A DNA stretch of 22,433 nt from a virus. Every line of letters starts with the position of its first letter. Position 1 is the first letter of the stretch. The stretch covers positions 1 to 22,433 of the IMG/VR virus record IMGVR_UViG_3300047557_001302; one strand, 5' to 3'. Of the stretch, positions 2,236-17,710 are shown one piece after another. The notes beneath the pieces are model-generated. The model ran no database searches. It saw only the letters and a program-made list of their open reading frames with translations, and was not told where the DNA came from. The position numbers were made by a program, and so were the translations under genes.

Positions 2236-2266
2236 CTCTACATCAACAACGCAACGGAGAGAGAAA

Positions 2267-2428: not shown

Positions 2429-2613
2429 TGAAGGCCCCAGACTGGCAGGGGCAGGCAGACAAGGAGGCCCGGCGCATCGTGCGCAAGGCCTACGCTGCAG
2501 GAAGCACGGTGCCCTACAGCCTCGGGCGCCTGCTAGAGCTTGGCTTTAGCCTAAAGGTAGTGCGGGCCGTCTACCGCAGCCCAGCGCTTGATTCCCCTGG
2601 CTCGGTGCGCTAA
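2428..2613 (+). CDS. Small basic hypothetical protein, 61 aa
   Basis: Begins MKAPDWQGQADKEARRIV at an ATG overlapping the previous stop, with AGGGG upstream as ribosome binding site. A TTG three bases earlier is less likely as the start. The protein is rich in Arg and Lys. Its predicted helical segment YSLGRLLELGFSLKVVRAVY could be a small HTH-like unit (SLGRLLELG-F-SLKVVRAVYRS), but it is too short to assign. Coding status rests on tight coupling, the ribosome binding site and codon use; function is unknown. Confidence 0.55.
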   Translation: MKAPDWQGQADKEARRIVRKAYAAGSTVPYSLGRLLELGFSLKVVRAVYRSPALDSPGSVR

Positions 2614-2846
2614 GCTCAGCATGTCGTCCTGTTCAGTTCGGCATGGCACGGCCTAGGGGGCACCCGAAAAGGCGACTAATCCACGCCCTGGCCTGTCTTC
2701 CTCGCACATCGCACGACCCAAAATCAGGCGATTTGTATCACTGTCAAGCAAGCGCATAGACGGGGGGGGCGTAAGCCGCAAGGCCCGCGCCCTCGATTGC
2801 TTGCGGGGGTTTTGGCCCCCCCGGTCTATGCGCAGAGAAGGAGCGT
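2614..2846. other. 233-bp intergenic control region before the replication genes
   Basis: This is the longest gene-free stretch in the window. Its right third (2752-2833) is a large nested inverted repeat, listed separately. The left part holds AAATC-AGGC-GATTT (2721-2734), a short dyad next to TTGTAT (2733-2738), a weak -35 candidate. No convincing -10 box at the right distance was found. ORFs on either strand here are short and have no ribosome binding site. The region probably separates the upstream short transcript from the replication operon. Confidence 0.5.
2752..2833 (+). repeat. Nested inverted repeat / RNA structure upstream of replication gene
   Basis: GCGCATAGAC (2752-2761) pairs perfectly with GTCTATGCGC (2824-2833). 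After one G:G mismatch, seven Gs (2763-2769) plus C2770 pair with G2815 plus seven Cs (2816-2822). Inside, CCGCAAG (2776-2782) pairs with CTTGCGG (2800-2806). A rival hairpin, GGGGG (2805-2809) with CCCCC (2816-2820) across TTTTGG, cannot form at the same time as the outer stem. The structure ends one base before the purine-rich ribosome binding site GAGAAGGAG (2835-2843). It could be a terminator of the upstream unit, a translational or attenuation switch, or a DNA-level element near the origin. Confidence 0.7.
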
Positions 2847-3635: not shown

Positions 3636-4419
3636 AAACCATCCGCGATCGGTAGTTCAAGCGCTTGGTGATCGCCAGCCAGACCGCGATGGACACTGCC
3701 CAGAGCACGGGGCATTCGTGAGCCGCAACATCTTCGCCAAGGTGTGGTCGAAGTGCCCGGCGTGCTCTGCTGCTGAAGCTGCTGCGGCCCAGGCCGAAGC
3801 CAGCGAGCGAGCAGCCCGCGCCGCCGATGAGCGCCACCGGGAGGCCATTGCCCAGGCTCGCATTCCTGCCCGATTCGTGGGCCGCACGTTCGCAAACTTC
3901 GTGGCAGACAGCGACGCACAGACTCATGCCCTGACCGTCGCCCGCGACTTCTCCGAGCGGTTCGAGCATCACGCCAAGCGTGGCACGTGGTTGGTTTTCT
4001 CCGGGCGTCCTGGCACCGGGAAAAGCCATCTCGCCGCAGCGATTTTGCAAGCGTCTATCACGCGGCACGTGCGATACATGACCTGCATGGACCTGATACG
4101 AACGGTGCGCGAAACGTGGCGGCGCGACTCAGAGAAAAGCGAATCCCAGGTTCTCGCCTACCTAGCCGGGCTTGACCTGCTCGCCATCGATGAGGTGGGG
4201 ATGCAGTACGGGACCGATGGGGAGCAGACCATTCTTTTCGACGTTATAGACCGTCGATATCGGGACATGAAGCCGACGATCCTGCTCACGAATCAGAACA
4301 AGGAAGGGCTTAAGACATTCCTGGGGGAGCGCACGCACGACCGGCTGCGCGAGATTGGCCGATGGGTTGCATTCGAGTGGGAGTCCTACAGGCCGCAATC
4401 AAGGATGGAATGGAAATGA
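3619..4419 (+). CDS. DnaC-like AAA+ helicase loader ATPase
   Basis: 266 aa from the ATG at 3619, chosen because AAGGGA lies about 10 bases upstream; an in-frame TTG at 3583 has no such site. Order of elements: a Cys/His cluster, CPEH (27-30) with CPAC (46-49), likely a zinc site; an Ala/Glu-rich helix (50-80); then the ATPase core with Walker A GRPGTGKS (129-136), Walker B LLAIDE (187-192), sensor-1 ILLTNQN (221-227) and a basic DRLRE (241-245). This is the DnaC/IstB-like layout. Such proteins load the host DnaB-type helicase on single-stranded DNA. The gene overlaps the initiator-like gene by 17 nt, so the two probably act together at the phage origin. Confidence 0.88.
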   Translation: MDQSPENHPRSVVQALGDRQPDRDGHCPEHGAFVSRNIFAKVWSKCPACSAAEAAAAQAEASERAARAADERHREAIAQARIPARFVGRTFANFVADSDAQTHALTVARDFSERFEHHAKRGTWLVFSGRPGTGKSHLAAAILQASITRHVRYMTCMDLIRTVRETWRRDSEKSESQVLAYLAGLDLLAIDEVGMQYGTDGEQTILFDVIDRRYRDMKPTILLTNQNKEGLKTFLGERTHDRLREIGRWVAFEWESYRPQSRMEWK

Positions 4420-5548: not shown

Positions 5549-5576
5549 TTGCTTTTGGCTTAAAATGCTGAATAAT
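5549..5576 (+). promoter_or_regulatory. Weak promoter candidate before the packaging genes
   Basis: TTGCTT (5549-5554) is separated by 16 bp from AATAAT (5571-5576), which matches five of six -10 consensus bases; the -35 matches only in TTG. It lies at the boundary between the replication block and the terminase block. If used, transcription would start near 5583, and the first usable ATG of the next gene would be at 5604. Confidence is low because the -35 is poor. Confidence 0.3.
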
Positions 5577-5969
5577 TGTGCAATCGATCAAGAAATATCA
5601 CGCATGGCGCACCCGCCAGATGATGACGACGAAGCGACGATATTCCGCCAAAAGATCATCTGGCGTAGCGCAGCCGACGCTGAACCACACAAGATATTGG
5701 GGCCATCGTCAATTTTCGACATCGTTCACGTACTAGCAATAAAGAGGGTGAGGCTCACAACAGCACAAGCCTCAGGGAGGACGACAAAGGAAACAGACGG
5801 CACAAAGACCGTCGAAGGGTGCAGATACCCAATGGCAAGGGATCAAGATGAGCGCGAATTGATCCGACGCGAGAAGCTATCGCGCATCAAGCCGCCAAAG
5901 CCACCTAAGGCAGCCATCACCAGGGGCCGGAAAATAGGCCGCATTTACACAGACTGGGAAGATTACTGA
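5565..5969 (+). CDS. Hypothetical protein upstream of small terminase
   Basis: 134 aa from the ATG at 5565, or 121 aa from the ATG at 5604 (MAHPPDDDDEATIF). Neither has a good ribosome binding site. The later start fits better if the promoter candidate at 5549-5576 is real. The N-terminus is acidic (DDDDEAT). The C-terminus is strongly basic and Pro-rich (SRIKPPKPPKAAITRGRKIG) and ends DWEDY, suggesting nucleic-acid contact. It is the first gene of the packaging block, one base before the small terminase. No family is recognised, and its function is unknown. Confidence 0.6.
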   Translation: MLNNCAIDQEISRMAHPPDDDDEATIFRQKIIWRSAADAEPHKILGPSSIFDIVHVLAIKRVRLTTAQASGRTTKETDGTKTVEGCRYPMARDQDERELIRREKLSRIKPPKPPKAAITRGRKIGRIYTDWEDY

Positions 5970-5970
5970 C

Positions 5971-6519
5971 ATGGCCGGGAAATCAAAGCTCACCATCGCA
6001 CAATGGGATGAAATCGAAAAGCGCCTACTAAGAGGCGAACCCAAACGTGCAATTGCAAAAGACCTGTCAGAACGAGGCATCAAAATCACAGAGGGCGCGA
6101 TACGATTGAAATTCGGAGACCGCGTAGAAATGGCAAAGGCCCTAGCAAATCAAATAGTTGCAAATGATGCGCAGTTAAAATCGCTACCAATGGCTACGCA
6201 GGTCAATGTGAATTCCCTCGTCGATGAGCTAAAGGCAGTCTCGATGCATCTCGCCAGTGCTGCAAAGTACAACGCCGCTACCGCACACCGGATGGCAGCT
6301 ATCGCCAATGGGCAGGTCGAGAAGATAGACGACGCAAACCCACTGGCAAGCGAGGACACACTAAAGGCAATAGCCGGTCTTACAAAGATGGCGAACGAGG
6401 CTAGCCAAATCCCGGTTGCACTGATGAACGCACACAAAGACCGGATGGCCGCAGTAGATGCACAGAAGGGGCAGGACGGCGGGCAGGTGAAGTTCTACCT
6501 ACCGAGCAATGGCCGCTGA
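5971..6519 (+). CDS. terS: Terminase small subunit
   Basis: A 182-aa protein directly upstream of and overlapping the large terminase by 11 nt. The N-terminus is a helix-turn-helix: AQWDEIEKRLLRGEPKRAIA (residues 10-29), then KDLSERGIKITEGAIRLKFG (30-49). The middle is a long helical region (residues ~55-150) suited to oligomerisation, and the Gly/Gln-rich tail ends FYLPSNGR. In tailed phages TerS binds the packaging initiation site as a ring and delivers DNA to TerL. The assignment rests on HTH plus helix architecture and on position; sequence families of TerS diverge widely. Four of its eleven Ile codons are ATA. Confidence 0.8.
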   Translation: MAGKSKLTIAQWDEIEKRLLRGEPKRAIAKDLSERGIKITEGAIRLKFGDRVEMAKALANQIVANDAQLKSLPMATQVNVNSLVDELKAVSMHLASAAKYNAATAHRMAAIANGQVEKIDDANPLASEDTLKAIAGLTKMANEASQIPVALMNAHKDRMAAVDAQKGQDGGQVKFYLPSNGR

Positions 6520-7858
6520 CATTAGACCGCAGAAAGGCCCACAAGAGCGGTTTCTTGCCTGCTCGGCTGACATTGCAATCTATGGTGGCGCCGCTGGAGG
6601 TGGGAAAAGCTGGGCGCTTCTTTTGGAGCCGCTGCGACATGTCACATCAAACCCGGAATTTTCCACTGTTTTTTTCCGACGAAATACAGTTCAGGTGCGT
6701 AACCCAGGCGGGTTGTGGGATGAGAGCGCAAAGCTCTATCCATTGAGCGGTGCCGTACCTGTCAAGCATGTGCTCGAATGGGCATGGCCAGGAGGCGGCA
6801 AGGTGAAATTCGGACACCTTGAGCATGAAACGACCGTCTACGATTGGCAGGGGGCACAGATTCCCCTGATCTGTTTTGACGAGTTAACGCACTTCACAAA
6901 AAACCAGTTTTTCTACCTGATGAGCCGCAATCGCTCGATGAGTGGTGTTAAGCCATACATCAGGGCGACGACGAACCCAGATGCTGATTCTTGGGTCGCA
7001 GAGTTTATTGAGTGGTGGATTGACCAGGATACAGGGCTTCCGATACATGACCGCGCAGGGGTTGTCCGTTGGTTCATTCGTATCAATGACTCGATCATCT
7101 GGGGCGATAGTGTTGAGGAGCTGAAAGCTACGCACGGGCCAGAAGTTGAGCCAAAGTCTGTGACGTTCATCCCTGCAAAACTATCTGATAACGCCGCACT
7201 AATGGCGGCTGATCCAGGCTACCGCGCAAACATCATGGCGCAAAGTGCCGTCGAACGTGCGCGATTGGCAGATGGGAATTGGAAGATACGTCCAGCCGCT
7301 GGGCTTTACTTCCGCAGGTCATGGTGCGATGTGGTTGACGCTATCCCTTCGGATTGCGACCTTGTTCGATATTGGGACTTGGCAGCTACCGAGAAAACAG
7401 AGGCGAACGACCCGGATTGGACTGTAGGCATAAAGATGGGTTATAGCCCGTCAACTAGGAAATACTATGTCTGCCACGCGGTACGAATTAGGGCCGGAGC
7501 GTTCGCTGTTGAAACGGCAATAAAAAACACAGCGGCCCAAGATGGGATAAGGGTCAAAATCAGACTGCCACAAGACCCAGGTCAAGCTGGTAAATCTCAG
7601 GCCCAATCTCTTATTTCCATGCTCGCAGGCTATACCGTGACAGCAAGGGCCGAACGAGGCGACAAAATCACCCGGTTCGGGCCATTCAGCGCCCAGTGCG
7701 AAGCGGGCAATGTCGCATTCTTGCGTGGAAATTGGACAGAGGATGTTTTCGATTCTCTGGAGATGTTCGGCCCAGACGCAAAGCATGACGACGACGCCGA
7801 TGCCTGCGCTGGCGCGTTTGGTGCATTTGTCACCCCTTCCGTTGGCATCTTTGCCTAG
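6509..7858 (+). CDS. terL: Terminase large subunit (packaging ATPase/nuclease)
   Basis: 449 aa. The ATPase domain has a Walker A-like GGAAGGGKS (26-34), Walker B LICFDE (120-125) and coupling motif ATTNP (153-157). The RNase H-like nuclease domain shows acidic residues in RYWDLAAT (Asp290), QDPGQAGK (Asp356) and the HDDDAD cluster (426-431), the three usual metal-binding positions. The enzyme cuts concatemeric phage DNA and drives it through the portal. Length is normal for the family. The start overlaps terS, and the stop TAG overlaps a GTG that could be, but probably is not, the portal start. Five of its 25 Ile codons are ATA, unlike the major capsid gene, which has none. Confidence 0.95.
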   Translation: MAADIRPQKGPQERFLACSADIAIYGGAAGGGKSWALLLEPLRHVTSNPEFSTVFFRRNTVQVRNPGGLWDESAKLYPLSGAVPVKHVLEWAWPGGGKVKFGHLEHETTVYDWQGAQIPLICFDELTHFTKNQFFYLMSRNRSMSGVKPYIRATTNPDADSWVAEFIEWWIDQDTGLPIHDRAGVVRWFIRINDSIIWGDSVEELKATHGPEVEPKSVTFIPAKLSDNAALMAADPGYRANIMAQSAVERARLADGNWKIRPAAGLYFRRSWCDVVDAIPSDCDLVRYWDLAATEKTEANDPDWTVGIKMGYSPSTRKYYVCHAVRIRAGAFAVETAIKNTAAQDGIRVKIRLPQDPGQAGKSQAQSLISMLAGYTVTARAERGDKITRFGPFSAQCEAGNVAFLRGNWTEDVFDSLEMFGPDAKHDDDADACAGAFGAFVTPSVGIFA

Positions 7859-7865
7859 TGGCCAC

Positions 7866-7875
7866 TCCCTATCAT
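7866..7875 (+). promoter_or_regulatory. Repeated motif TCCCTATCAT, copy 1
   Basis: First of five exact copies of this 10-mer. It ends six bases before the ATG at 7882, which has no Shine-Dalgarno sequence. TATCAT matches five of six bases of a -10 box. It lies immediately after the large terminase stop. Confidence 0.5.
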
Positions 7876-7881
7876 CAGCGC

Positions 7882-9225
7882 ATGGACATCATCGTCAACA
7901 CATCCGACATTGCAGCCGCACGCGCAGAACTGGCCCGGGCATTCGGTGCGCTCGATACGAAACGTCCCGAGGCTTGGGACGTTTACGGCTACCCTGAACA
8001 AGTCGCATTCGCAAAGATTAAGACGGCCTACGAGCGATTTGGCCCGGCCCATGGCGCAGTCCACAGGCTGCTAGATACGTGCTGGGAGGAATATCCACGG
8101 ATCAAGCGGCCGGATGATGACGAACAAAGCCCATGGGAGAAGTCTGTCTCCGCGCTGTTCAAATCAGCCAAGGTATGGCCCGCACTTCGAGACTTCGACC
8201 GCAAAAATCTGATCGGTCGATTCTCGGCGCTTGTCTACCGTGTAGCCGATGGCCAATCGCTGGATCAGCCGCTAATCCGGGCCCGTAAATTGGTGGAGGT
8301 AATCCCACTCTACGAGGATCAAATCAAGGTAGAGGCATGGGACACGGATCAAACATCGGAGACATACGGTCAGCCGATGATGTTCGGAGTTCGGACAAGA
8401 TCACCTGACGCACAAGATACACAAGGCGCCCCTGAGGCGTGGATTAACGTCCACCACAGCCGAGTTCAGATACTGGCAGAAGGCGCTATAGGGGATATGT
8501 TTTCAGGCGTACCAATGCTGCGCGCTGCGTACAACCATCTCGTTGATCTGGAGAAGATCAGCGGAGGAAGCGCTGAAAGCTACCTTAAAAACTCGGCCAG
8601 AACTGTTGTTTTTCAGTACGAACCTGGCGCATCGGTGCAGAGCATTCAAGCGGCAGATGGGTCAACAAAGACGGTCCGGCAAATCCATGAGGAACAGACC
8701 CAGGCCCTAAACCGCAATCAAGATGCGTCTATCGTCCTGCAAGGCGGCAAGGCCGAGACTTTGCAGACGAGCATTAGCGACCCTACGGGGGCTTACCTGC
8801 TCGCTGCGAACCTGTTTTCTGCGGCGGTGCGAATCCCGTTCACTATCCTATTCGGCCAGCAAACGGGGCGACTTGCCAGCGACCAAGACAATGCAGACTT
8901 GATCGCCCGGGCGACATCCCGCAGAAATATTGAATTGACCCCGATGCTTGAGGAGTTCATTACCAGAATGCAAGCGGCTGGGATCATCGAGCCCGGAGAA
9001 TTTGAGGTTGAATGGCCGACATTGGGTGCACCAACTGACGATGAGAAGGTCACTATTCTCGGAAAGATGACCGATGCAATGGTCAAGGCATCGAGCGCAG
9101 GAATAGTCGCCCCGTTATTTGACGAGAACGAGCTAAGGCGAGTTGTTGACTATGAGGAACGCGAGGAGTTAGCTGCAATGCCAGCGCCTCAAGAAGAAGG
9201 GGAGAAAGATGATCGGGAGCTTTGA
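7882..9225 (+). CDS. Portal protein (DUF1073-type)
   Basis: 447 aa from the ATG at 7882. An in-frame GTG at 7858 overlapping the terL stop would add eight residues. I prefer the ATG because it stands at the same distance from a TCCCTATCAT motif as two other starts. Recognisable portal features are AFAKIKTAYERFGPAHGAVH near residues 43-62, a central beta-rich wing (EVIPLYEDQIKVEAWD), then the long helical stem with RIPFTILFGQQTGRLASD, a pattern of DUF1073 portals, and an acidic tail (EEGEKDDREL). Twelve copies form the DNA channel at one capsid vertex in tailed phages. Position directly after terL supports the call. Confidence 0.88.
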   Translation: MDIIVNTSDIAAARAELARAFGALDTKRPEAWDVYGYPEQVAFAKIKTAYERFGPAHGAVHRLLDTCWEEYPRIKRPDDDEQSPWEKSVSALFKSAKVWPALRDFDRKNLIGRFSALVYRVADGQSLDQPLIRARKLVEVIPLYEDQIKVEAWDTDQTSETYGQPMMFGVRTRSPDAQDTQGAPEAWINVHHSRVQILAEGAIGDMFSGVPMLRAAYNHLVDLEKISGGSAESYLKNSARTVVFQYEPGASVQSIQAADGSTKTVRQIHEEQTQALNRNQDASIVLQGGKAETLQTSISDPTGAYLLAANLFSAAVRIPFTILFGQQTGRLASDQDNADLIARATSRRNIELTPMLEEFITRMQAAGIIEPGEFEVEWPTLGAPTDDEKVTILGKMTDAMVKASSAGIVAPLFDENELRRVVDYEEREELAAMPAPQEEGEKDDREL

Positions 9226-10036
9226 CAACGAGCGGCACTCTATGGGTATGCCGTGGCTAAACGCGGCATCTCTCGGCACAAGCTCCGGTGTTGTTCGTGT
9301 CGCTGTGTCTGGGAACAATGCAGACGTCGCAACCGGGTCAGCGAGTGAGGACATTTGGGCTGGGTCTGACCTTGGGACGATCAACACAATCAACCATCAC
9401 ACGATCCAGATTCCCCAAACCGCCACAGCGATGGAGGTCGTGAGTGACAACGCAGCCGACACAGCCGCAGGCGCTGGGCTGCGCAGCGCCCAAATCATCT
9501 ACCTCGATGCGGCCTATGTGTCCAAAACCGTCACGGTTGTGATGAACGGGACGACGCCTGTAGCCCTCCCTGAACCTGTTGTGGCGATCAACTCATTCGC
9601 CCGGGCGACTACTGGGACGTTCATGGGCGCGAATATCGGCAATGTTTCGATCCGTGCAGTTGGTGGTACTGGGGCGACTTACTCTTACATGCGGGCCGGA
9701 ATCGGAAGTGCTCAGTCTGCGATTTACACGGTACCTGATGCGCACACCATGATCCTCGATGGCGTGACGTACTCACTCAAGAAGCCAAACGCCGGTGATG
9801 CAACGGCTGATTTCTACATCTCATCAATCAGCGGCACCGGAGCCCTTTTGAAAAGCTCGCCCATCTCGGTTGCGTCTGCTGCGACATACCGGACAAACGG
9901 CGGCGTGGCCCTCGCAATCGTCCCGGCGCGCACTGCTCTGTGGGTCAGCGTTACAAATGTGACAGGCAACAACACAGGTGCGACTGCGACCATGTACGGA
10001 ATCAGAATCCCTAACTCTAAGCTGGTGCCGCAATGA
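9209..10036 (+). CDS. Putative beta-rich virion protein between portal and MuF-like gene
   Basis: 275 aa from the ATG at 9209, with AAGAAGGGGAG upstream and a 17-nt overlap with the portal gene. The sequence is rich in Thr, Ala, Gly and Val with many alternating beta-like segments (VRVAVSGNNADVATG, SKTVTVVMNGTTPVALPEPV, ATMYGIRIPNSKLVP). It lacks charged helices, cysteines and any signal peptide. This fits a beta-sandwich structural protein such as a head decoration or neck-associated component. No family is recognised. It is coupled by ATGA to the next small gene, so the pair probably act together in the virion. Confidence 0.6.
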   Translation: MIGSFDNERHSMGMPWLNAASLGTSSGVVRVAVSGNNADVATGSASEDIWAGSDLGTINTINHHTIQIPQTATAMEVVSDNAADTAAGAGLRSAQIIYLDAAYVSKTVTVVMNGTTPVALPEPVVAINSFARATTGTFMGANIGNVSIRAVGGTGATYSYMRAGIGSAQSAIYTVPDAHTMILDGVTYSLKKPNAGDATADFYISSISGTGALLKSSPISVASAATYRTNGGVALAIVPARTALWVSVTNVTGNNTGATATMYGIRIPNSKLVPQ

Positions 10037-10299
10037 TCTTGCCAGACATAACCCTCGCAGAGTCAACATGGACTAATGTGTTCGCTGCTGCATCGCTGTC
10101 AGTAGGCACTGCCGTTATTGTCACGACAAAAACGCCAGGGGCGACCGTCATGCTGTGGGATGGCGTATCTGCCCCAGGCTCCACAACTAGCGGATACCCC
10201 GTTATTTACCCGCAGTCTGCAAAGGTCACAGCAGGATCATCCGGTTTGTGGGCATATCCTGGCACTCGGTCTGTACAAATAGCAGTGCAAACAGTTTGA
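10033..10299 (+). CDS. Small beta-rich virion protein, 88 aa
   Basis: Begins MILPDITLAESTWTNVFAAA at an ATGA overlap with the preceding gene and ends at a TGATG overlap with the MuF-like gene. The pattern GTAVIVTTKTPGATVMLWDG, followed by YPVIYPQSAKVTAG, resembles small phage proteins with a single beta-sandwich domain that are often head-fibre or decoration components. The assignment is by pattern and context only. Confidence 0.6.
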   Translation: MILPDITLAESTWTNVFAAASLSVGTAVIVTTKTPGATVMLWDGVSAPGSTTSGYPVIYPQSAKVTAGSSGLWAYPGTRSVQIAVQTV

Positions 10300-11213
10300 T
10301 GAACCCGATCATCCCCGGCAACAAATCAGACCGAACTGGATCGTCTGGGATCATTCGCAAGGCAATCGCGCAGATCAATTTGCGTTATTCGGCATTGCAG
10401 CGTGATGTGCTTGCCATCTTCTCGCGCATTCAATACCTCAGGCTAAACGAGGTTGATTTTGGTCGCGTGTCTTACATGCTCACGCCTGACCAAATGCGGA
10501 TCGTAGATCGAGAGATCGAGTTAGCACTATCGAAATGGATCGCAGACGGGAACAGCCCTGCTGAGTTCCATTGGTATGCACAATACGATGAAGCGGCTCA
10601 TTTCCTTGGTACTACGCAGACCGCCGCAAACCTTGGCCGTGCATCTGAGGCTTACGCAATCGCTAGGCAATTGTCCAACATCGTGAGGACTGACCCATAC
10701 AGAACACGATTGGCAATGACTCAATTCCGCAGCTATGAACACTGGGTAAGCCTAAGTTCCCAAGCCAAAAGCGATCTTACGTCCATCATCACCCGCGCTG
10801 TTAGTGACGGAAAAAACCCAAAGGCGGTACGCACTGAAATAGCAGAAAGGATTGACGTCAGCAGGTCGAGGGCTGCACTCTATGCGCAGACAGACATAAC
10901 AGGGACGCTCAGGGAAGCACGCGTAGCCGAAGCTGAACAAGCCGAGATTGATCTTGGCATCAAGACTGGCCTGCTATGGACGAGCGCGCTAAAGACGACA
11001 ACCAGGCCGTGGCACGCATCTCGGCACGGTAACGCGTACTCTAGGGCAGAGGTCAAGGCTTTCTATTCTGAGAATGGGAATTCATTCAACTGCTATTGTT
11101 CAATAACAGAGACGCTTCTAGACAAAGACGGGAATCCGATATTGTCTGATAAGCTAAAGAAGGCCATGGCACTTGAAAAGAAAGCCTGGAAAGCCACCCA
11201 TGTGGGCCGTTAA
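10299..11213 (+). CDS. MuF/SPP1 gp7-like head morphogenesis protein
   Basis: 304 aa from the ATG at 10299; upstream in-frame codons belong to a shadow. The N-terminal two thirds are helical. The C-terminal part carries the hallmark of phage Mu F-type minor head proteins: TDITGTLREARVAEAE, then LLWTSALKTTTRPWHASRHG and SFNCYCSITETLLDKDG, where the HxxRHG and CYC elements probably hold a metal or disulfide. These proteins are packaged minor head components bound near the portal and needed for head assembly. The last ten bases (GGC CGT TAA and the preceding G) are also the 5' end of a tRNA gene, so the stop codon TAA is tRNA positions 8-10. Confidence 0.85.
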   Translation: MNPIIPGNKSDRTGSSGIIRKAIAQINLRYSALQRDVLAIFSRIQYLRLNEVDFGRVSYMLTPDQMRIVDREIELALSKWIADGNSPAEFHWYAQYDEAAHFLGTTQTAANLGRASEAYAIARQLSNIVRTDPYRTRLAMTQFRSYEHWVSLSSQAKSDLTSIITRAVSDGKNPKAVRTEIAERIDVSRSRAALYAQTDITGTLREARVAEAEQAEIDLGIKTGLLWTSALKTTTRPWHASRHGNAYSRAEVKAFYSENGNSFNCYCSITETLLDKDGNPILSDKLKKAMALEKKAWKATHVGR

Positions 11214-11280
11214 CTCAGACGGTCAGAGTAGCCGACTCATAATCGGTTAGTCGCAGGTTCGAGCCCTGCACGGCCTACCA
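11204..11280 (+). tRNA. tRNA with CAT anticodon, probably tRNA-Ile2 (reads AUA)
   Basis: A complete 77-nt cloverleaf. Acceptor arms are GGGCCGT (11204-11210) and ACGGCCT (11270-11276), with one G:U pair at 1:72. The D-stem is ACTC/GAGT with GG in the loop. The anticodon stem is GCCGA/TCGGT around loop CTCATAA, with anticodon CAT at 11238-11240. The T-stem is GCAGG/CCTGC with loop TTCGAGC, the discriminator is A, and CCA is encoded. The anticodon stem lacks the G:C triplet of initiator tRNA. C4:G69 and C5:G68 match the determinants that TilS uses in E. coli tRNA-Ile2, favouring Ile2 over elongator Met. It lies inside the late operon and overlaps the preceding gene by 10 nt. Confidence 0.93.
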
Positions 11281-11298
11281 ATCAAAGTTGGATCATAT

Positions 11299-11326
11299 TT
11301 TCAAGGTGCAACGTTGCACCTTGAAA
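11299..11326. repeat. 28-bp perfect palindrome between tRNA and protease/scaffold gene
   Basis: The left arm TTTCAAGGTGCAAC (11299-11312) is followed without spacer by its exact reverse complement (11313-11326). As RNA it would form a 12-13 bp hairpin with a minimal loop, but no U-run follows, so it is not a classical intrinsic terminator. It lies in the widest gap of the late block, 18 nt after the tRNA CCA and 17 nt before the second TCCCTATCAT copy. An operator, a processing or stabilising stem, or a recombination site are all possible. Confidence 0.8.
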
Positions 11327-11343
11327 TCGGACAAGAAGTGTGA

Positions 11344-11353
11344 TCCCTATCAT
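11344..11353 (+). promoter_or_regulatory. Repeated motif TCCCTATCAT, copy 2
   Basis: Ends eight bases before the ATG at 11362. The flanks extend the identity with copy 5 to 14 bases, TGATCCCTATCATT (11341-11354 and 17350-17363). Only a weak AGAAG precedes the start codon. Confidence 0.5.
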
Positions 11354-11361
11354 TCAGAAGC

Positions 11362-12495
11362 ATGAAGCGAGTAAACCTAATCTCTGCCGTGAATGCGTCG
11401 AATATCCGCAAGGATGGCGCGTCTTACTACATCAAAGACTTGGTTCACGCTGTTGACGGCATCGTCCTGAATGGGCGGCTGTACCCTGGCGATGAATTGC
11501 AGAAGTCGGTTTCTACGCTTGAGGGCAAGCCAGCCCCGGCTGGCCACCCGAAGGACGACCAGGGCCGACACATCAGCGCAAGCAACGGCAAGGCACTAGC
11601 TTCTGCATACATCGGCGCCTACTGCACCAATAGCCGCTATGAAGGCGGGCGTGCAATGTGCGATGTGGTTATCAACGAGGCCCAGGCAAAAGCTCTACCC
11701 GCTGGTGCTGAAATCATCGCCCGATTGGATGCAGCGATTCTCGGCACAAATACCGAGCCAATCTCGGTGAGTTCCGGCCTGCTACTGCGAGAGATCGCCG
11801 CTAATGGTGAAAGCCGCGGCAAGAAGTACCGCGCCATTGCCACAGACATGAACTTTGACCATGTTGCTTTTCTGCTCAACGAGAAGCCAGCCGGATCACC
11901 AGCAGATGGGATCGGTGTTTTTGTGAATGAGGCAGGCGAGGAAAGCGAGGTTGAAACCGTGGAAGTGAATGATATTCATGAAGACCAGGATACGCCGAAG
12001 TTCATTCGGTGGCTTACTGCGATTTTCGCCAATGTCAAGGCGCAAAAATCGACTTCCCTATCATCTAGCACAGACGAGGTTGATATTGAGCCCGTCGAAA
12101 TCAAACCCGCCACGAATGGAGATGATCCGGTGAAAGAAATCATTATCGAAGCGCTGAACAGCGCCGGGGTGGCTGTTGCAGGGCTCGATGATGCCCAGCT
12201 ACTGGCCGCATACAACTCGCTGCAAGCCAAGCCGATCGAGGCCAAGCTGGCAGACGTTACCGCCAAGCTGGCCACGTTGGAGGCTAACGCCGCCGCCGCC
12301 GCTGATGCCGAGGTGACAGCGCTGGCCGCAGAACTCGCCGCCAATTCGAGCTTGACCGTCGATGACCTCAAGAAGCTCGGCGCAGATCGCTTGAAGGAAA
12401 TCAAGGCCAACACCAAGGCCGCGCCGATCCTGCCAGCACAAGGCGGGACCATTGAGAAACTCCAGGCGTACAGCCTGAACGCTGAAATCAAGTAA
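11362..12495 (+). CDS. Prohead protease/scaffold protein (DUF2213-like)
   Basis: 377 aa with two parts. Residues ~1-190 match the DUF2213 pattern of phage maturation proteases: LNGRLYPGDEL, EGKPAPAGHP with His62, EPISVSSGLL with Ser137 or Ser138, and MNFDHVAFLL with His167. The assignment of catalytic residues is by analogy. Residues ~190-255 are an acidic linker. Residues ~257-377 are Ala/Leu-rich and coiled-coil-like (AKLADVTAKLATLEANAA, AEVTALAAELAANSSLTVDD), typical of scaffolds. Protease fused to scaffold next to the capsid gene is a common head-assembly arrangement. An in-frame GTG at 12130 preceded by GGAG could start a separate 121-aa scaffold, as in lambda C/Nu3. Confidence 0.8.
   Translation: MKRVNLISAVNASNIRKDGASYYIKDLVHAVDGIVLNGRLYPGDELQKSVSTLEGKPAPAGHPKDDQGRHISASNGKALASAYIGAYCTNSRYEGGRAMCDVVINEAQAKALPAGAEIIARLDAAILGTNTEPISVSSGLLLREIAANGESRGKKYRAIATDMNFDHVAFLLNEKPAGSPADGIGVFVNEAGEESEVETVEVNDIHEDQDTPKFIRWLTAIFANVKAQKSTSLSSSTDEVDIEPVEIKPATNGDDPVKEIIIEALNSAGVAVAGLDDAQLLAAYNSLQAKPIEAKLADVTAKLATLEANAAAAADAEVTALAAELAANSSLTVDDLKKLGADRLKEIKANTKAAPILPAQGGTIEKLQAYSLNAEIK
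12055..12064 (+). promoter_or_regulatory. Repeated motif TCCCTATCAT, copy 3 (inside protease/scaffold gene)
   Basis: This copy lies within the linker-coding part of the protease/scaffold gene, 66 bases upstream of the possible internal scaffold start at 12130. In frame it reads part of Ser-Leu-Ser-Ser, so chance coding cannot be excluded for this copy alone. Confidence 0.35.
12118..12132 (+). promoter_or_regulatory. Possible internal start of a scaffold-only product
   Basis: GGAG (12118-12121) is followed after eight bases by an in-frame GTG (12130-12132, codon 257). Translation from here would yield 121 aa containing exactly the predicted scaffold helices. The site is inferred from spacing and domain boundary only. 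Confidence 0.35.
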
Positions 12496-12504
12496 GGAGC
12501 GAAC

Positions 12505-12954
12505 ATGCCTAACGCAATTTTCCGCAGCACGAATGTCGAGCCGCGCACCATCTCCGACCGCACCGTGTCTGGTGCTTTGCTGCCATGTACTGCTGTAAGT
12601 ATTGGCGCCACGCAACTGACCCAGGCGACGGCAGTGTCGGCTACCAATCTGGCGCTGCTCGGCCCTCGTGACTTTTACGGCCTGAGCACCTCCAGCACCG
12701 ATGTACTCAAGACTCCGTATGTTTCTGGTGAAACCGGCATCGCCTACAAGCTGCGCCCTGATGATCAAGTCGTTTGGGCTATGGCCGCTGGCACTTACAC
12801 CTACGGCCAAGAACTTACCGTTGCCGCTTCTGGCCGTTTGGCTGCTGCTGCTGCGACGAACATCGTGGTCGCGTTCTACGATCAAGCAGGCGCAACCCTC
12901 TCGGCTGGTGATCTGGCCGATGTGTGTGTCGCAAACTTCTACACCAAAGCCTAA
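12505..12954 (+). CDS. Capsid decoration protein
   Basis: 149 aa beginning MPNAIFRSTNVEPRTISDRT. It has a very strong ribosome binding site, TAAGGAG, that overlaps the previous stop codon. The sequence is beta-rich and low in charge, with a Thr/Ala-rich body and segments such as GIAYKLRPDDQVVWAMAAGT and NIVVAFYDQAGATLSAGDL. Small proteins of this type encoded between scaffold and major capsid genes are usually head-stabilising or decorating proteins (lambda gpD position), often of the DUF2190-like type. The strong translation signal fits a product needed in hundreds of copies. Function is inferred mainly from position. Confidence 0.72.
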   Translation: MPNAIFRSTNVEPRTISDRTVSGALLPCTAVSIGATQLTQATAVSATNLALLGPRDFYGLSTSSTDVLKTPYVSGETGIAYKLRPDDQVVWAMAAGTYTYGQELTVAASGRLAAAAATNIVVAFYDQAGATLSAGDLADVCVANFYTKA

Positions 12955-12970
12955 CTAGGAGCTTCTCAAA

Positions 12971-13972
12971 ATGGCTGACATTCTGCAATTCACGCCCGAG
13001 CAAGAAGCCCAAGTCTGGGCCGCTCGCAACAGCTTTAACGACCGCCAAACTGCCATGTCTACCAATGGCGCATTGGAGGGCAATGCCCTGTCGATCCCCA
13101 TCGACGCATGGCGACGCATTGACGGCCGTGCACAGCAACTCGCTCGATCGCGCTTGGTGGTGTTTAACGCCCTGGCCGCTGCCAGCACGCAGCCCGTTTC
13201 GATCGCTGATCTGGTGAGCTACTACCCACAGGTGAGCGACTCGGGCGAGGTGACTGTGACCATGGATGGTCGCAACCAAGCCAAGGCAGACCAAGCCGCC
13301 GTCAAGTACGTGGGTACCCCGGTCCCCGTGATGACCTCGACCGCTCGCATGGGCTGGCGTCAGATGGAAGTCATGCGCAAGGGTGGCGGAATGCTGGATG
13401 TGACGACCATCGCCAACAATCAGCGCAAAGTCGCTGAGAAGCTGGAGGACATGGTTATCAACGGCTTGTCGTCGGTGAGCGTTGGCGGTGATACCGTCTA
13501 CGGCCTGCGCAACTTCCCCCAGCGCAACGCACTGACCCATGGCCTGACGCTCTCGACCGCTACCGGCGCACAGTGGCTGACTGCCGTCAAGGCAATCATC
13601 AATTCGGCCATCGGAGATAACCAGTTCGGCCGCATCACGTTGTTTGTGAACATTGGTGATTACGTCGCAATCGACACGACCGACTATAGCGCGAGCTATA
13701 GCGGCACGATCAAAGAGCGCCTGATGACCATTGGCCAGATCGCTGACATTGTGCCATCCTCGTCGATCCCCGCGAGCGAGATCATCGGCATTGTTGATTT
13801 GGCCGCTGGTGAGTGGGGCTCGATTCTGTCGGCCATGCCTATGACCACGCGCCCGAAGACTCGCCAAGAGCCCGAGGACGATTATGTGTTCAGCGTCATC
13901 GCAGCCGCCGCGCCGCAGTTCCGCGCTGACTACAACGGCAACTCGCCGTTTGTCCATTCGACGACCGCCTGA
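12971..13972 (+). CDS. Major capsid protein (HK97/encapsulin-like fold)
   Basis: 333 aa with TAGGAGC upstream of the ATG. Residues ~50-130 (RIDGRAQQLARSRLVVFNAL, then YYPQVSDSGEVTVTMDGRNQ) and the segment MGWRQMEVMRKGGG with KVAEKLEDMVINGL match the encapsulin-related group of HK97-fold capsid proteins. The E-loop and long spine-helix order are as expected; the C-terminus is beta-rich (DDYVFSVIAAAAPQFRADY). It forms the icosahedral shell. Codon choice is strongly host-like: none of its 23 Ile codons is ATA, although the terminase genes use it often, consistent with very high expression. The length is short to normal and no N-terminal scaffold domain is fused, agreeing with the separate scaffold gene. 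Confidence 0.88.
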   Translation: MADILQFTPEQEAQVWAARNSFNDRQTAMSTNGALEGNALSIPIDAWRRIDGRAQQLARSRLVVFNALAAASTQPVSIADLVSYYPQVSDSGEVTVTMDGRNQAKADQAAVKYVGTPVPVMTSTARMGWRQMEVMRKGGGMLDVTTIANNQRKVAEKLEDMVINGLSSVSVGGDTVYGLRNFPQRNALTHGLTLSTATGAQWLTAVKAIINSAIGDNQFGRITLFVNIGDYVAIDTTDYSASYSGTIKERLMTIGQIADIVPSSSIPASEIIGIVDLAAGEWGSILSAMPMTTRPKTRQEPEDDYVFSVIAAAAPQFRADYNGNSPFVHSTTA

Positions 13973-14232
13973 TGAAGTTCATCATCACCCACATGAAAGC
14001 ACCCTGGCCCGATGGGGCTGGGGTGGGTGATGTGGTTTCGTTTGATGTGGTCCCGCCTTGGGCCTTGGGTAAGTGCAAGCCAGCCGCAGAAGATGTGGCT
14101 GTGTTTGTCACGCAGCAAGCTCAAAAAGAGCCAAGCTTGCGTGAACAGGCCGAAGCCATGGGCATCAAGGTGGATGGCCGCTGGACTGACAAGCGGATCG
14201 CAGAAGAACTCGCCAAGGCACAAGCCAAGTGA
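13972..14232 (+). CDS. Small head protein with HeH/LEM-like C-terminus
   Basis: 86 aa coupled to the capsid gene by ATGA. The N-terminal half is beta-like (KFIITHMKAPWPDGAGVGDV, then VVSFDVVPPWALGK). The C-terminal 40 residues, LREQAEAMGIKVDGRWTDKR followed by IAEELAKAQ, have the helix-extended-helix pattern common in small phage proteins encoded after the major capsid gene. The HeH fold often binds nucleic acid in other proteins, but its role here is unproven. Probably a minor head component. Confidence 0.6.
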   Translation: MKFIITHMKAPWPDGAGVGDVVSFDVVPPWALGKCKPAAEDVAVFVTQQAQKEPSLREQAEAMGIKVDGRWTDKRIAEELAKAQAK

Positions 14233-14594
14233 TTACTGTCACTCAAGCGACTCAATACATCGACATGGCGCTGGGGGTTTCGCTCCCGGCGTTTGTTGTT
14301 TCTGCGGCAGTCGAGAAGATCGAAACCGCAGAGCCCGCCATGGTTGCAGCCGGATATTCAGAGGCTGACATGGTGTTGATTCAATCGATGGCCGTGGCTG
14401 TTCTCGCGTGTGGAGGGGCACCACGGCGCATTGATAACCAGGGAGCTTCTAGCGGGGCTCGCCGCGCATTCAAATACGAGGACGGAAGCCTCTCGAAGCT
14501 CCGCCGCTCGCTCGCATCGCTGGACACTGCAGGTACGGTTGCTGATTTGATCGGTGCTGATCCGGCAATGTCCACCATGTTCATGGTCGTCTAA
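14229..14594 (+). CDS. Head-tail connector/adaptor candidate, 121 aa
   Basis: Starts at a GTG in a GTGA overlap with the previous gene. The protein is largely helical: ATQYIDMALGVSLPAFVVSA, AVEKIETAEPAMVA, DMVLIQSMAVAVLACGG, then a basic RRIDNQGASSGARRAFKYED and a final helical segment. This length and layout, placed just after the capsid genes, fits adaptor proteins that dock under the portal (gp6/gp15-type). No catalytic motif is present. The assignment is from helical profile and synteny. Confidence 0.55.
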   Translation: MITVTQATQYIDMALGVSLPAFVVSAAVEKIETAEPAMVAAGYSEADMVLIQSMAVAVLACGGAPRRIDNQGASSGARRAFKYEDGSLSKLRRSLASLDTAGTVADLIGADPAMSTMFMVV

Positions 14595-14605
14595 GGAATC
14601 GAAAA

Positions 14606-15007
14606 ATGGCAAACGCTGTATACCCGAAGTGGAAAGAAGGTCTTACTCAGGCCAGCGCAAACACGGCACTAACTGGGACCGTAAAAGCGGCCTTGGTCGA
14701 TACTGGAACCTACACCTACAGTTCCGCGCATCAGTTCTGGTCGTCGGCATCGTCTGCGGTTGTCGGAACGCCACAAACAATTGGCACAAAGACATACACC
14801 AACGGGCTGTTTGATGGCGCTGATGTGACCTACACGGCGCTCACTGGATCGACCGCAGAAGCTATCATCATCTACATCGACACTGGATCAGCCGCTACGT
14901 CGCCATTGGTCGCGTACTTTGACACTGGCGTCACCAATCTGCCGGTAACCCCTAACGGCGGTGATGTAACTATCACCTGGAATGCATCCGGTATCTTGCA
15001 GCTCTAA
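14606..15007 (+). CDS. Putative virion structural protein, 133 aa
   Basis: Begins MANAVYPKWKEGLTQASANT, with TAAGGA overlapping the previous stop as a strong ribosome binding site. This opening, then TVKAALVDTGTYTYSSAHQF and later segments such as AEAIIIYIDTGSAATSPLVA and TITWNASGILQL, matches a widespread family of small phage structural proteins encoded in the neck region. The body is beta-rich with no cysteine. It is probably a virion component; the exact place in the particle is unknown. Confidence 0.65.
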   Translation: MANAVYPKWKEGLTQASANTALTGTVKAALVDTGTYTYSSAHQFWSSASSAVVGTPQTIGTKTYTNGLFDGADVTYTALTGSTAEAIIIYIDTGSAATSPLVAYFDTGVTNLPVTPNGGDVTITWNASGILQL

Positions 15008-15032
15008 GCCACGCTACTAAGGGGAGGGCTGC

Positions 15033-16799
15033 ATGGCCCTAGTGCAGACCTCCACACTGCTCCGCACAGTCAACAGCGGGGCAACGTCAACGATCTCATA
15101 CACAAGCAACCTGACGGCTGGAAGCCTGTCGGTGCTTTGCGTTGGCAACTACCCGAGCGGAATCACATCCGTCTCGGGTAGCACGAACGGGGCATATTCC
15201 CAGGCTGTTACCTACGGGGACGGCGGGAACAACTACACCGAGATTTGGTACAAGGCCAACGTCTCGGCTGGGGCTGAAACTCTCACGATAACCCCAACGA
15301 GCGCAAGCGGGAATTACGTCACCGCAGTAGCTCAAGAGTGGTCCGGGATGGCGACTAGTTCGCCGCTCGATCAAACAGGCACATCTGGAACGCTCACGGT
15401 CAGCACGACAGGGGCGACGACGCAGGCCGATGAGGTTGTGTTTACCGTCGCGGTGGCCGACGCCGGATCGTCCAACGTCGGGTGGGGCACGCCGAGCGGC
15501 TACACGCTGATCGCCCGTGAGAACGACTCGAACACGTACACGGGCCTGCAATCTGCGTACAAGATCGTTGCAGCTACTGGCACGCAGTCAGCCACTCACA
15601 CGAACTCAAGCGTCTCTGCTGACACGATCATCGCCGCGTTCAAAGTGGCAGGCGGTGGTGGTCAGACACTATCGCCGGGTCTGCTGACAAATACCAGTAC
15701 GATCTACGTCCCGAGTTTGACGCTTGGGAGCGTTGCGCTATCTCCGGGCCTGTTGACAAACACGTCAACGCTCTACGCTCCGACTTTGAGTGCATCGCTC
15801 AATGTCTCGCCTGGGTTACTCACAAACACAAGTACGCTCTATGCGCCATCGGTGAGTGTTGGGGTGTTGACTGTATCGCCAGGGCTGCTGACCAACTCAA
15901 GCACGCTTTACGATCCGTCGATCACTCTCGGTGCTGTCTCGCTATCTCCAGTCCTGCTGACTAACACCAGCACGCTATATGCACCGGCTTTGTCGCTCGG
16001 TGGCCAGAGCCTTAGCCCTCCGCTACTGACCAACACATCGACGATCTACGCGCCAAGCATTGCACTCGGTGCAGTCAATCTCTCGCCTGGGCTACTGACA
16101 AATACGTCCACGCTGTACGCGCCAAGCGTTCTAGCTGGCCAGAACCTAGCCGCGCCTTTGCTCGATTCTGGCGGGTTTATTTACGCGCCTAGCATCTCAC
16201 TTGGCACGGTTACCCTATCACCTCCGCTGATTGGCAGCACTGGTGCGCTGTATGCGCCTTCTATCGCCACCGGGACGGTCATATCGCCGCCGCTTCTGAC
16301 CAACACAAGCACCCTTTATGGGCCGTCTTTGTCCGTTGGCTCGGTGACGTTAAGTCCAAGCCTTCTAACCAACACCAGCACGCTTTACGCCCCGACGCTC
16401 ACGCAGTTCTCACCAGGGGCGCAGACACTAAGCCCTGGGTTACTGACAAACACCAGCGCACTCTATGCGCCTAGTCTGTCTGTCGGTACTACGTACCTAA
16501 GCGCCCCGCTTTTGGTGAGCGATGGGCAAGCCTATCACCCTGCAATCTCGTCTTTGCTGTCGGTTGGCGCGCCGCTTATCACCAATACATCGAGCGTATT
16601 TGCTCCCGTTGTTACGCCGGGCGGGGTAACTCTGCAACCCGGCATTCTGGTGAATGTCTCGGCTTTGCTGCTCCCTATCATCACGGGCGGGGCATCTGCA
16701 AACCCATCTGCGAAGTGGATCTATTCGGTCGCTACGCAAGGGATGGGCTTCAACGTCTCACCCGATGGGCTTTATTACTCGGTCAAGGCAAGGTCTTAA
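15033..16799 (+). CDS. Large virion-associated protein with ~15 tandem repeats
   Basis: 588 aa with AAGGGGAGGG before the ATG. Residues 1-205 form a beta-rich jelly-roll or Ig-like domain (TISYTSNLTAGSLSVLCVGN, IWYKANVSAGAETLTITP, VVFTVAVADAGSSNVGWG, TIIAAFKV), a type seen in phage adhesion and decoration proteins. After a GGGGQ linker, residues ~211-551 hold about 15 repeats of 22-23 residues built on LSPGLLTNTSTLYAPSLS. Repeats 8, 9 and 13-15 are the most diverged. The last ~35 residues (KWIYSVATQGMGF, then SPDGLYYSVKARS) form a separate cap. The regular PGLLTNTSTLYAPS unit suggests a fibrous beta-structure. It could be a collar, head or neck fibre; exact function and oligomer are unknown. 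Confidence 0.7.
   Translation: MALVQTSTLLRTVNSGATSTISYTSNLTAGSLSVLCVGNYPSGITSVSGSTNGAYSQAVTYGDGGNNYTEIWYKANVSAGAETLTITPTSASGNYVTAVAQEWSGMATSSPLDQTGTSGTLTVSTTGATTQADEVVFTVAVADAGSSNVGWGTPSGYTLIARENDSNTYTGLQSAYKIVAATGTQSATHTNSSVSADTIIAAFKVAGGGGQTLSPGLLTNTSTIYVPSLTLGSVALSPGLLTNTSTLYAPTLSASLNVSPGLLTNTSTLYAPSVSVGVLTVSPGLLTNSSTLYDPSITLGAVSLSPVLLTNTSTLYAPALSLGGQSLSPPLLTNTSTIYAPSIALGAVNLSPGLLTNTSTLYAPSVLAGQNLAAPLLDSGGFIYAPSISLGTVTLSPPLIGSTGALYAPSIATGTVISPPLLTNTSTLYGPSLSVGSVTLSPSLLTNTSTLYAPTLTQFSPGAQTLSPGLLTNTSALYAPSLSVGTTYLSAPLLVSDGQAYHPAISSLLSVGAPLITNTSSVFAPVVTPGGVTLQPGILVNVSALLLPIITGGASANPSAKWIYSVATQGMGFNVSPDGLYYSVKARS
15663..16689 (+). repeat. Tandem coding repeats (~66-69 bp units)
   Basis: About 15 degenerate copies encode the LTNTSTLYAPS unit. 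The nucleotide copies vary much more than the protein at third codon positions, so the array is old and kept by protein selection rather than by recent duplication. Most units are 66 or 69 bp; the unit near 16380-16440 is longer, with an insertion reading TQFSPGAQT. Confidence 0.85.
16672..16681 (+). promoter_or_regulatory. Repeated motif TCCCTATCAT, copy 4 (inside repeat-protein gene)
   Basis: Lies near the 3' end of the repeat-protein gene, about 120 bases before the ATG at 16800. In frame it encodes Leu-Pro-Ile-Ile, so it could be chance on its own. Confidence 0.3.
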
Positions 16800-17012
16800 A
16801 TGCCAACTGGTCAAGGTACCGCAACGATTGATTTTGGCGCCTTCCCTGGCGGGAATGAGGCCAACGTGGCCGTCACTGGTGAGACTGCAATTTCAGCCAC
16901 CAGTAAAGCAGAAGCATTTTTCATGGGTGACGACACAAGTGGATCACACACAGCAAGCGACCACAGGTACACGGTTGGCGCAGATGACCTGTTTTTTTAC
17001 ATAGCAGATTGA
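16800..17012 (+). CDS. Small virion protein, 70 aa
   Basis: The ATG directly follows the preceding TAA; AAGG elements lie just upstream within that gene. The sequence MPTGQGTATIDFGAFPGGNE, then VAVTGETAISATSKAEAFFM and SDHRYTVGADDLFFYIAD, matches a small beta-sandwich protein found repeatedly in the neck and tail-start region of proteobacterial phages. It is probably a minor structural or fibre-associated component. The family is remembered by pattern; no function is known. Confidence 0.65.
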   Translation: MPTGQGTATIDFGAFPGGNEANVAVTGETAISATSKAEAFFMGDDTSGSHTASDHRYTVGADDLFFYIAD

Positions 17013-17022
17013 AGGATTGAGC

Positions 17023-17352
17023 ATGGCAACGACTGGAACCGCGTGGGACTTGAGCAACCCGGATAAGCCGGTGGCAAAATTCGACCCCGATGCAATCCGT
17101 GACATTCCTATGGATTGGTCGGAGTGGTTGACCGATATCGGATCGACCTACTCTAGCCATTTGGTAACAGCTCCGGCCCCGCTTGAGATGGTTTCTAGCT
17201 CTGAATCGTCTGGTGTTATCACGGCCCGAATCAAGGTTGCCACGGCTGCGACGTACACGCTCGGCACCAAATGCCCAGTTACTTACACGGTAACTGCTGC
17301 GAATGGCGAGAAGGACGAGCGCACGGTTTGGCTCAAGCTCGTGCAGCGGTGA
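17023..17352 (+). CDS. Fiber-tail-adaptor-like structural protein
   Basis: 109 aa from the ATG at 17023, with GAAGGA (17011-17016) overlapping the previous stop; the TTG at 17017 is not needed. The pattern is FDPDAIRDIPMDWSEWLTDI, a central Ser-rich strand region, then TYTVTAANGEKDERTVWLKL. This matches the phage proteins annotated as fiber-tail adaptor: an Asp/Trp-rich N-terminus on an Ig-like beta-domain ending in an R-x-V-W-L-K-L strand. It likely sits at the neck or links a fibre to the particle. It is followed by the fifth copy of the TCCCTATCAT motif. Confidence 0.68.
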   Translation: MATTGTAWDLSNPDKPVAKFDPDAIRDIPMDWSEWLTDIGSTYSSHLVTAPAPLEMVSSSESSGVITARIKVATAATYTLGTKCPVTYTVTAANGEKDERTVWLKLVQR

Positions 17353-17362
17353 TCCCTATCAT
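17353..17362 (+). promoter_or_regulatory. Repeated motif TCCCTATCAT, copy 5
   Basis: Overlaps nothing but the 16-bp gap after the previous TGA and ends six bases before the ATG at 17369. There is no Shine-Dalgarno between motif and start. Flanks are identical to copy 2 over 14 bases. Confidence 0.5.
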
Positions 17363-17368
17363 TTACGC

Positions 17369-17710
17369 ATGAGTAACGCCGCAAACTGGAGCTACACCAG
17401 CACAGCTACGCACTGGCCAAGCATGGGCCGGGACGATTGGACTGGCACGCTTCGATTTGGCGCGCCGGTTTCATTTGCGTGTGACTACTCGGCAAAAGCG
17501 GAGCGCATGACGGATCAAAAGGGCGTCGAGTTTGTTTCACGCCAGATCATCTACACCGAGCGGGCCACGATTAACCGGGGTGATTTTGTGATGATTGGCG
17601 CATCGACTGCGGCTGACCCAATCTCAGCGGGAGCGTTTGAGGTTCGATCTGTCACACGTTTTGCTGATACGTTCGACAAGATCGCTGATGACTACATGGT
17701 GGCCACATGA
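17369..17710 (+). CDS. Neck/head-completion-like protein, 113 aa
   Basis: Begins MSNAANWSYTSTATHWPSMG at an ATG following the TCCCTATCAT motif. Segments WTGTLRFGAPVSFACDYSAK, VEFVSRQIIYTERATINRGD and FEVRSVTRFADTFDKIADDY form a small beta-barrel-like protein. This protein is common in prophages in the gap between connector and tail tube genes, where stopper or head-closure proteins occur. The family function is not established. The gene is coupled by ATGA to the next. Confidence 0.6.
   Translation: MSNAANWSYTSTATHWPSMGRDDWTGTLRFGAPVSFACDYSAKAERMTDQKGVEFVSRQIIYTERATINRGDFVMIGASTAADPISAGAFEVRSVTRFADTFDKIADDYMVAT

Follow-up and report, generated by a model that had tools for sequence, protein, structure and literature searches.

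The window analysed here is the whole of IMG/VR virus record IMGVR_UViG_3300047557_001302 (positions 1 to 22,433; 22,433 bases). Its + strand carries terminase, portal and head genes, including a DUF2213-type protease/scaffold gene of family phrog_760, and then tail genes that extend to a tape measure protein. Dispersed through this late region are five exact copies of the 10-mer TCCCTATCAT, all on the + strand (Table 1). Shuffled sequence leads to an expectation of 0.02 copies, and none of 100 shuffles reached five. An earlier note on this DNA had drawn attention to the repeat and suggested leaderless late mRNAs made from a −10-type, factor-dependent promoter, with a non-SD translation signal or an RNA-processing site as alternatives. 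Comparison with relatives gives the promoter interpretation strong but indirect support. The 10-mer is quite probably the box of dispersed single-box late promoters, about half of which would give leaderless mRNAs.

Counted from their first bases, boxes 1, 2 and 5 precede the ATGs at 7882, 11362 and 17369 by 16–18 nucleotides (nt), leaving 6, 8 and 6 nt between the end of the box and the start codon. In line with the earlier note, boxes 2 and 5 share a 14-mer, and these three starts have no Shine–Dalgarno (SD) core (AGGA, GGAG, GAGG or AAGG, looked for between about −20 and −4); no −35 box was found, the best match to TTGACA at 15–19 bp scoring 1–3 of 6 across the window copies. Of the 23 other starts tested in the window, an SD core is present in 15 and missing from 8. 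All eight overlap or abut the preceding gene, and the three box genes do not; the lack of an SD is therefore not unique to the box genes, but it is unique to them away from a coupled start. Beyond the earlier note, box 3 precedes an internal SD-led GTG at 12130, and box 4 an SD-led start, the ATG at 16800 of the next gene, which lies 118 nt downstream and has the SD core AAGG at 16790–16793. Some of these layouts recur elsewhere. In two relatives (G058 and G063) a box stands 6–7 nt upstream of the portal start, and the layout of box 5 is found before the homologous gene in G058. Boxes near a gene end in G001 and G003 resemble box 4 in layout, a likeness not extended to demonstrated homology.

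Table 1. Boxes and genes of the window discussed in the text
Feature	Position	Strand	Remarks
Box 1, TCCCTATCAT	7866–7875	+	TATCAT at 7870–7875 is the predicted −10 hexamer; portal ATG 7882 is 6 nt downstream
Box 2, TCCCTATCAT	11344–11353	+	ATG 11362 is 8 nt downstream, predicted leaderless
Box 3, TCCCTATCAT	12055–12064	+	predicted inner promoter within the phrog_760 gene, in frame (S-L-S)
Box 4, TCCCTATCAT	16672–16681	+	close to the end of gene 15033–16799
Box 5, TCCCTATCAT	17353–17362	+	immediately follows the preceding gene's stop codon, 6 nt upstream of ATG 17369
Candidate late regulator gene	5565–5969	+	134 amino acids as longest open reading frame; no PHROG match; candidate by association only
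Terminase gene	6509–7858	+	
Portal gene	7882–9225	+	phrog_146, E 1.2e-87; predicted leaderless
Head morphogenesis gene	10248–11213	+	
Protease/scaffold gene, DUF2213-type, phrog_760	11362–12495	+	DUF2213 name via annotated homologues
Predicted separate scaffold-like product	12118–12495	+	SD GGAG at 12118–12121, start GTG 12130
Head decoration gene	12505–12954	+	
Probable major capsid gene	12971–13972	+	best PHROG: virion structural protein; second-best PHROG: major head protein
Minor-tail-like protein gene	15033–16799	+	
phrog_797 gene	17369–17710	+	E 1e-34, alignment begins at residue 1; predicted leaderless

The exact 10-mer turned out to be a misleading search key. A scan of a viral collection for the 10-mer and then GCATG returned 56 stretches, only a handful of them relatives and the majority apparently chance occurrences; the relatives mostly have TAGCAT. 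Three of the stretches (L050, L072 and L069) have the 10-mer just upstream of a relative of the phrog_760 gene (55, 56 and 52% identity), and exact copies number 5, 2 and 2 in their records, on a single strand within each. One contig, L104, is 99.96% identical to the window across 11.3 kb and has four of the five copies in common with it. A protein-based scan yielded 60 viral and 5 genome loci, with the genome matches in Comamonas terrae, Rhodoferax and Pseudorhodoferax, and most of its loci have TCCCTAGCAT, TTCCTAGCAT or a near variant before the phrog_760 gene. The hosts of L204, L205 and L207 are Comamonas terrae NBRC 106524, Rhodoferax sp. TH121 and Pseudorhodoferax sp. Leaf265. The window 10-mer is one form, the T variant at position 7, of an element approximating TYCSTAKCAT that is shared with relatives including Comamonadaceae prophages. 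Conservation in diverged relatives, whose absence the earlier note had named among the findings that would refute its proposal, is present. No description of this box was found in the open-licence PMC literature, the only literature searched.

The strand preference seen in the window extends to the relatives. In a set of 65 loci (940,669 bases), drawn from the protein scan except for the window, L135, L137 and L072 (the last three records were also recovered by that scan), the sense and antisense counts are 100 and 5 for TCCCTAGCAT, 68 and 0 for TCCGTAGCAT, 66 and 4 for TTCCTAGCAT, 19 and 0 for TCCATAGCAT and 15 and 0 for TCCCTATCAT, and none of the same words, reversed as a control, is present more than once. 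For the combined pattern the totals are 305 coding-strand and 10 antisense copies. Across single-base variants T5, A6, A9 and T10 are almost invariant, and we take these to be promoter positions −12, −11, −8 and −7. Some prophages stand in the set twice, as a viral contig and in a genome, and de-duplication leaves the 190 copies to which the spacing and terminator counts below refer. In a further comparison of 16 records, made up of the window plus 15 records of phages or prophages, each turned so that the strand richer in boxes reads forward, there are 112 sense and 5 antisense copies, against a first-order Markov expectation of 3–6 per strand, and the tblastn matches of head and tail proteins all lie on the box-rich strand. 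The box-bearing records have 5–9 sense copies each (14 records); G062 has none. The location is confined to the late half. With the early half taken to end 200 nt ahead of the candidate regulator gene, 11 records provide 217,957 bp of early DNA with no copies and 297,497 bp of late DNA with 87. In four host genomes, 32 of the 53 listed places with TYCSTAGCAT are in the prophages and 21 elsewhere, and the reversed control occurs 21 times genome-wide.

The spacing to the start codon separates the copies into two groups. An ATG lies 6, 7, 8 or 9 nt downstream of 26, 23, 41 and 7 of the 190 copies (97 in total), and no other offset between 0 and 99 exceeds 10 copies. Set against the 102 copies with an ATG at 5–10 nt are 88 without one, and 61 of these have an SD-led start within 130 nt, compared to 29.5% of random windows. 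The box therefore appears to accompany either a leaderless start or an SD-led start further downstream, which is what a promoter box predicts and a translation signal does not. That second possibility, a non-SD translation-initiation signal acting in the mRNA 6–8 nt before the ATG, would account for the SD-like spacing and for the close copies lacking an SD, and start-associated sequences of mycobacteriophages have been interpreted in this way in the part of the source consulted (PMC3203893). We consider it improbable here, given the 88 far copies, 61 of them followed by SD-led starts, the distance of a conserved inner box from its start and the terminators just upstream of boxes, the last two described below. 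As to what kind of promoter it would be, no conserved −35 element accompanies the 190 copies, in which upstream columns reach at most 0.43 save at two positions, 1 base (C 0.74) and 3 bases (G 0.47) before the box. A sigma70-type −35 hexamer at 16–18 bp is lacking, and a single box at the −10 position with a start spacing of 6–8 nt, as in the T4 type, is what is found.

One conserved far copy is inside the protease/scaffold gene. A box occurs within 75 nt upstream of the phrog_760 gene in 34 of 38 distinct relatives, and an inner box within the gene in 32 of the 37 that are sufficiently long, always in frame 0 and encoding S-[VL]-[AS]. All 32 genes have an SD-led in-frame start codon (ATG, GTG or TTG) 65–77 nt past the inner box; such a start is found at 270 of 8,672 pseudo-positions (3.1%) in the same genes. 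The GGAG of the window ends 8 nt before the GTG. The simplest reading is that the inner copy would be a promoter for a separately made scaffold-like product, the parallel in lambda being Nu3 within gene C. We discarded a protein-level motif as the origin of the copies: box 3 is read in frame as S-L-S, box 4 in a different frame. The box-less relatives L159 and L165, too, have similar residues at the inner site, in codons that disrupt the box (L166 has one mismatch). GTA makes up 4.8% of the Val codons in these phrog_760-gene relatives.

The four of the 38 relatives without a box before the phrog_760 gene are informative about what can take its place. In three (L159, L165 and L174) the ATG is preceded at 7 nt by TATATT or TAGACT, itself behind a T-rich stretch resembling a terminator, a layout shared by L168 and L198, which are not distinct at 90% identity, and L173 has an SD-like AAGGA in place of the box. 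A box-less lineage has a different TAnnnT box 6–7 nt upstream of the ATG of the same gene, and the inner box is also lost in two of its members. As a separate observation, a second, lineage-specific start box, TGTAGACTCGCGCC, is found directly or one base before an ATG at L198 4019 and 12733 and at L165 10035. In five gammaproteobacterial phages with the homologous gene the start has an SD in every case and no box within 60 nt, and their stretches (15–25 kb each) hold one copy of the pattern apiece, on one strand. Terminators are also associated with the box itself: a hairpin and T-run lie within 70 nt upstream of 10 of the 190 boxes, compared to 2 of 3000 random positions, and genes downstream of a terminator need a start of their own or readthrough.

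These observations bear on two other explanations. If the box were an RNA-processing site, a nuclease would cut a long late transcript just past it and leave leaderless or short-leader mRNAs, which fits the strand bias and the fixed spacing equally well; terminators just upstream, a set of least variable bases that is that of a −10 box, and the lineage in which another TAnnnT box occupies the same place make this quite improbable. Repressor or silencer binding sites oriented with transcription would, like the stoperators of mycobacteriophages as presented in the portions of PMC9283540 and PMC6550527 consulted, be asymmetric, in a single orientation and in many copies per genome, but the tight spacing to ATG, the alternation with SD-led starts and the late-only location would not be expected of them, and we regard them as highly improbable.

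The promoter proposed for these temperate tailed phages of Comamonadaceae would be built as follows. The last six bases, which read TATCAT in the window and TAGCAT in most relatives, would sit at −10, and the first four (approximately T-Y-C-S) would be an upstream extension, with no −35. RNA polymerase, probably with a phage factor, would begin about 6–8 nt downstream of the box. At about half of the sites that start point would be the A of the ATG and the mRNA leaderless, as predicted in the window for the portal, phrog_760 and phrog_797 genes; at most other sites an SD-led start would follow further on, one of them within the protease/scaffold gene and making the scaffold domain separately. 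The earlier note's suggestion of leaderless late mRNAs agrees with the late-only location, the single strand, the ATG peak at 6–8 nt, the SD-led starts at distant ATGs, the terminators just upstream, the inner copy and the TAnnnT replacement. Comparison shows the conservation, the strand, the location, the spacing, the alternation with SD-led starts and the inner start; promoter action as DNA, mRNA 5' ends at the ATG and the need for a phage factor are inferred from them.

Several points weigh against this. TATCAT agrees with TATAAT in five of six bases, but TAGCAT in only four, so that an additional factor must be assumed. The absence of an SD core at −20 to −4 from all 102 copies with an ATG at 5–10 nt is partly forced, because the box and spacer occupy the space of the SD. 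No SD-led start was found within 130 nt of 27 of the 88 far copies, some of which may be accounted for by 13 GTG or TTG codons at 5–10 nt in that group. The purine preference at the expected start is weak at most. Leaders are no more structured than shuffles (n = 36, mean z 0.05), and leader hairpins were dropped as evidence for the start point. There are in-frame starts upstream that would allow a longer reading across the box, namely the GTG at 7858 for the window portal and an ATG in L050 and L072. Finally, copies of TCCATAGCAT lie within the candidate-regulator gene of G055, G057 and G059, which may be a coding coincidence.

Among known systems, we presume that the element is a variant of the single-box phage late promoter. 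Lambda-like phages normally express their late genes from one antiterminated promoter. Klebsiella phage ST11-VIM1phi8.1, which has a homologous DUF2213 gene and the same gene order, has an annotated antitermination protein, whereas the late genes here appear to have 5–9 boxes per genome in place of one antiterminated transcript. T4 late promoters, as far as the text consulted describes them (PMC2988020), have a single box placed roughly one helical turn ahead of the start and no conservation at −35, and they serve late genes. The differences are that T4 has an 8-bp TATA box and here the sequence is another, the phages are temperate and about half of the sites are predicted to be leaderless. 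The start-associated sequences (SAS) of cluster K mycobacteriophages are likewise short, asymmetric, phage-specific repeats, mostly in one orientation and a few nt before starts; according to the part of the source seen (PMC3203893) they contain AGGAG and sit in the non-structural half. Unlike them, the box here is without an SD, is in the late half and in about half of its copies is not beside an ATG. AR9 and phiKZ also have short phage-specific late motifs, and leaderless transcripts are, by the statement of the AR9 paper in the part available (PMC5312081), frequent in phages. These two phages differ in encoding their own multisubunit RNA polymerases, and the late untranslated regions of AR9 are 26–491 nt in that account.

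What protein might read the box was sought in the 16 records. No phage sigma factor is common to them and, unlike in T4, no gp55 or gp33 homologue was recognised, gp55 models as such not being among those searched. Sigma70_r2 and Sigma70_r4 each exceed the cut-off in a single record, the prophage-type G054, whose sigma factor gene with both domains lies at 39419–39892. Weak Sigma70_r4 matches in other records are partly at the position of TerS and appear to be its helix-turn-helix. When open reading frame (ORF) families shared by 14 or more of the 16 records are compared, only that of 5565–5969 is on the coding strand outside the head–tail block. It is present in 14; of the two records that lack it, G062 has neither a box nor a portal match, and G003 starts within the portal gene. 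A profile of the family matches 49 of 173 loci with at least two same-strand boxes and 4 of 182 others (355 loci), these four being pieces of box-rich records. Neither Pfam nor PHROG yields a match to the family at E 0.01 or better, and a tblastn search with one member, L170, gives none at E 0.01 among 50,697 phage records. The one PDB sequence match is a tRNA amidotransferase subunit (E 0.006). The structure predicted for the window protein is of low confidence (mean predicted local distance difference test 62.5, predicted template modelling score 0.27). The conserved parts are GPxS[VI]FDLA and ETEEWQERExRRARQxxPKP. A QLxLF-type motif is found in 14 of 33 distinct homologues and in 25 of 11,982 other ORFs, and is not in the protein of the window; QLxLF is given as the beta-clamp consensus in the part of PMC4549789 consulted.

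The association with boxes makes this family a candidate activator, perhaps tethered to the clamp as in T4 late transcription. A fuller version, in which the family would connect the host beta sliding clamp, via QLxLF, with RNA polymerase at single-box promoters and so couple virion-gene transcription, with many mRNAs leaderless, to replication, seems to us rather unlikely as a whole; it supposes that QLxLF was lost or altered in some members, including that of the window. Other findings count against the candidate. There is no profile match in 22 of 36 further records, although many of these records are fragments and the result is not decisive; profile-negative records with boxes include G078 (7 copies of TNCVTAGCAT in 29 kb), G079 (5) and G083 (4). 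The profile matches 12 of 399 Comamonadaceae-family genomes, and we compared 8 neighbourhoods from 7 of these, excluding three with weak matches (E above 1e-5) as well as G049 and G052, both part of the set beforehand. Sense boxes are present in 7 of the 8 but are mostly few (7, 6, 4, 2, 1, 1 and 1), those of G122 and G207 are on the upstream side only, and G396 contig 2 has a regulator homologue and no box in 40 kb. Homologous portal, DUF2213 and capsid genes are found only in the neighbourhoods of G318 and G396 contig 1, which have 7 and 6 boxes. In G431, G367, G122, G207 and G218, regulator homologues stand beside other head genes with 1–4 sense boxes nearby, some of them 6–9 nt before an ATG.

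A few other features of the region may be recorded. A tRNA gene called Met (CAT) at 11204–11280 overlaps the end of the head morphogenesis gene; its anticodon arm is similar to that of tRNA-Ile2, so that presumably it may read AUA. Between the tRNA and box 2 is a perfect 28-bp palindrome (11299–11326), possibly a terminator or a protein site. The minor-tail-like gene contains imperfect internal repeats of 79–87% identity at 15799–16471. In L072, the head morphogenesis gene (2218–4086, − strand) seems to hold an intein-like insert, recognised by eye, with an overlapping ORF on the opposite strand.

The late region of these phages seems to consist of several units, each started separately from a single-box promoter of shared type, with about half of the units predicted to be leaderless and one predicted promoter hidden within the capsid protease gene, where it would make the scaffold separately. 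If confirmed, this would define, for betaproteobacteria, a set of structural-gene mRNAs that are leaderless, and would provide also a late-gene marker, together with a candidate activator, for a group for which no close cultured relative was found here. Should the proposed bridge to the clamp be true as well, a T4-like logic of separate origin would be operating within a lambda-like body plan.

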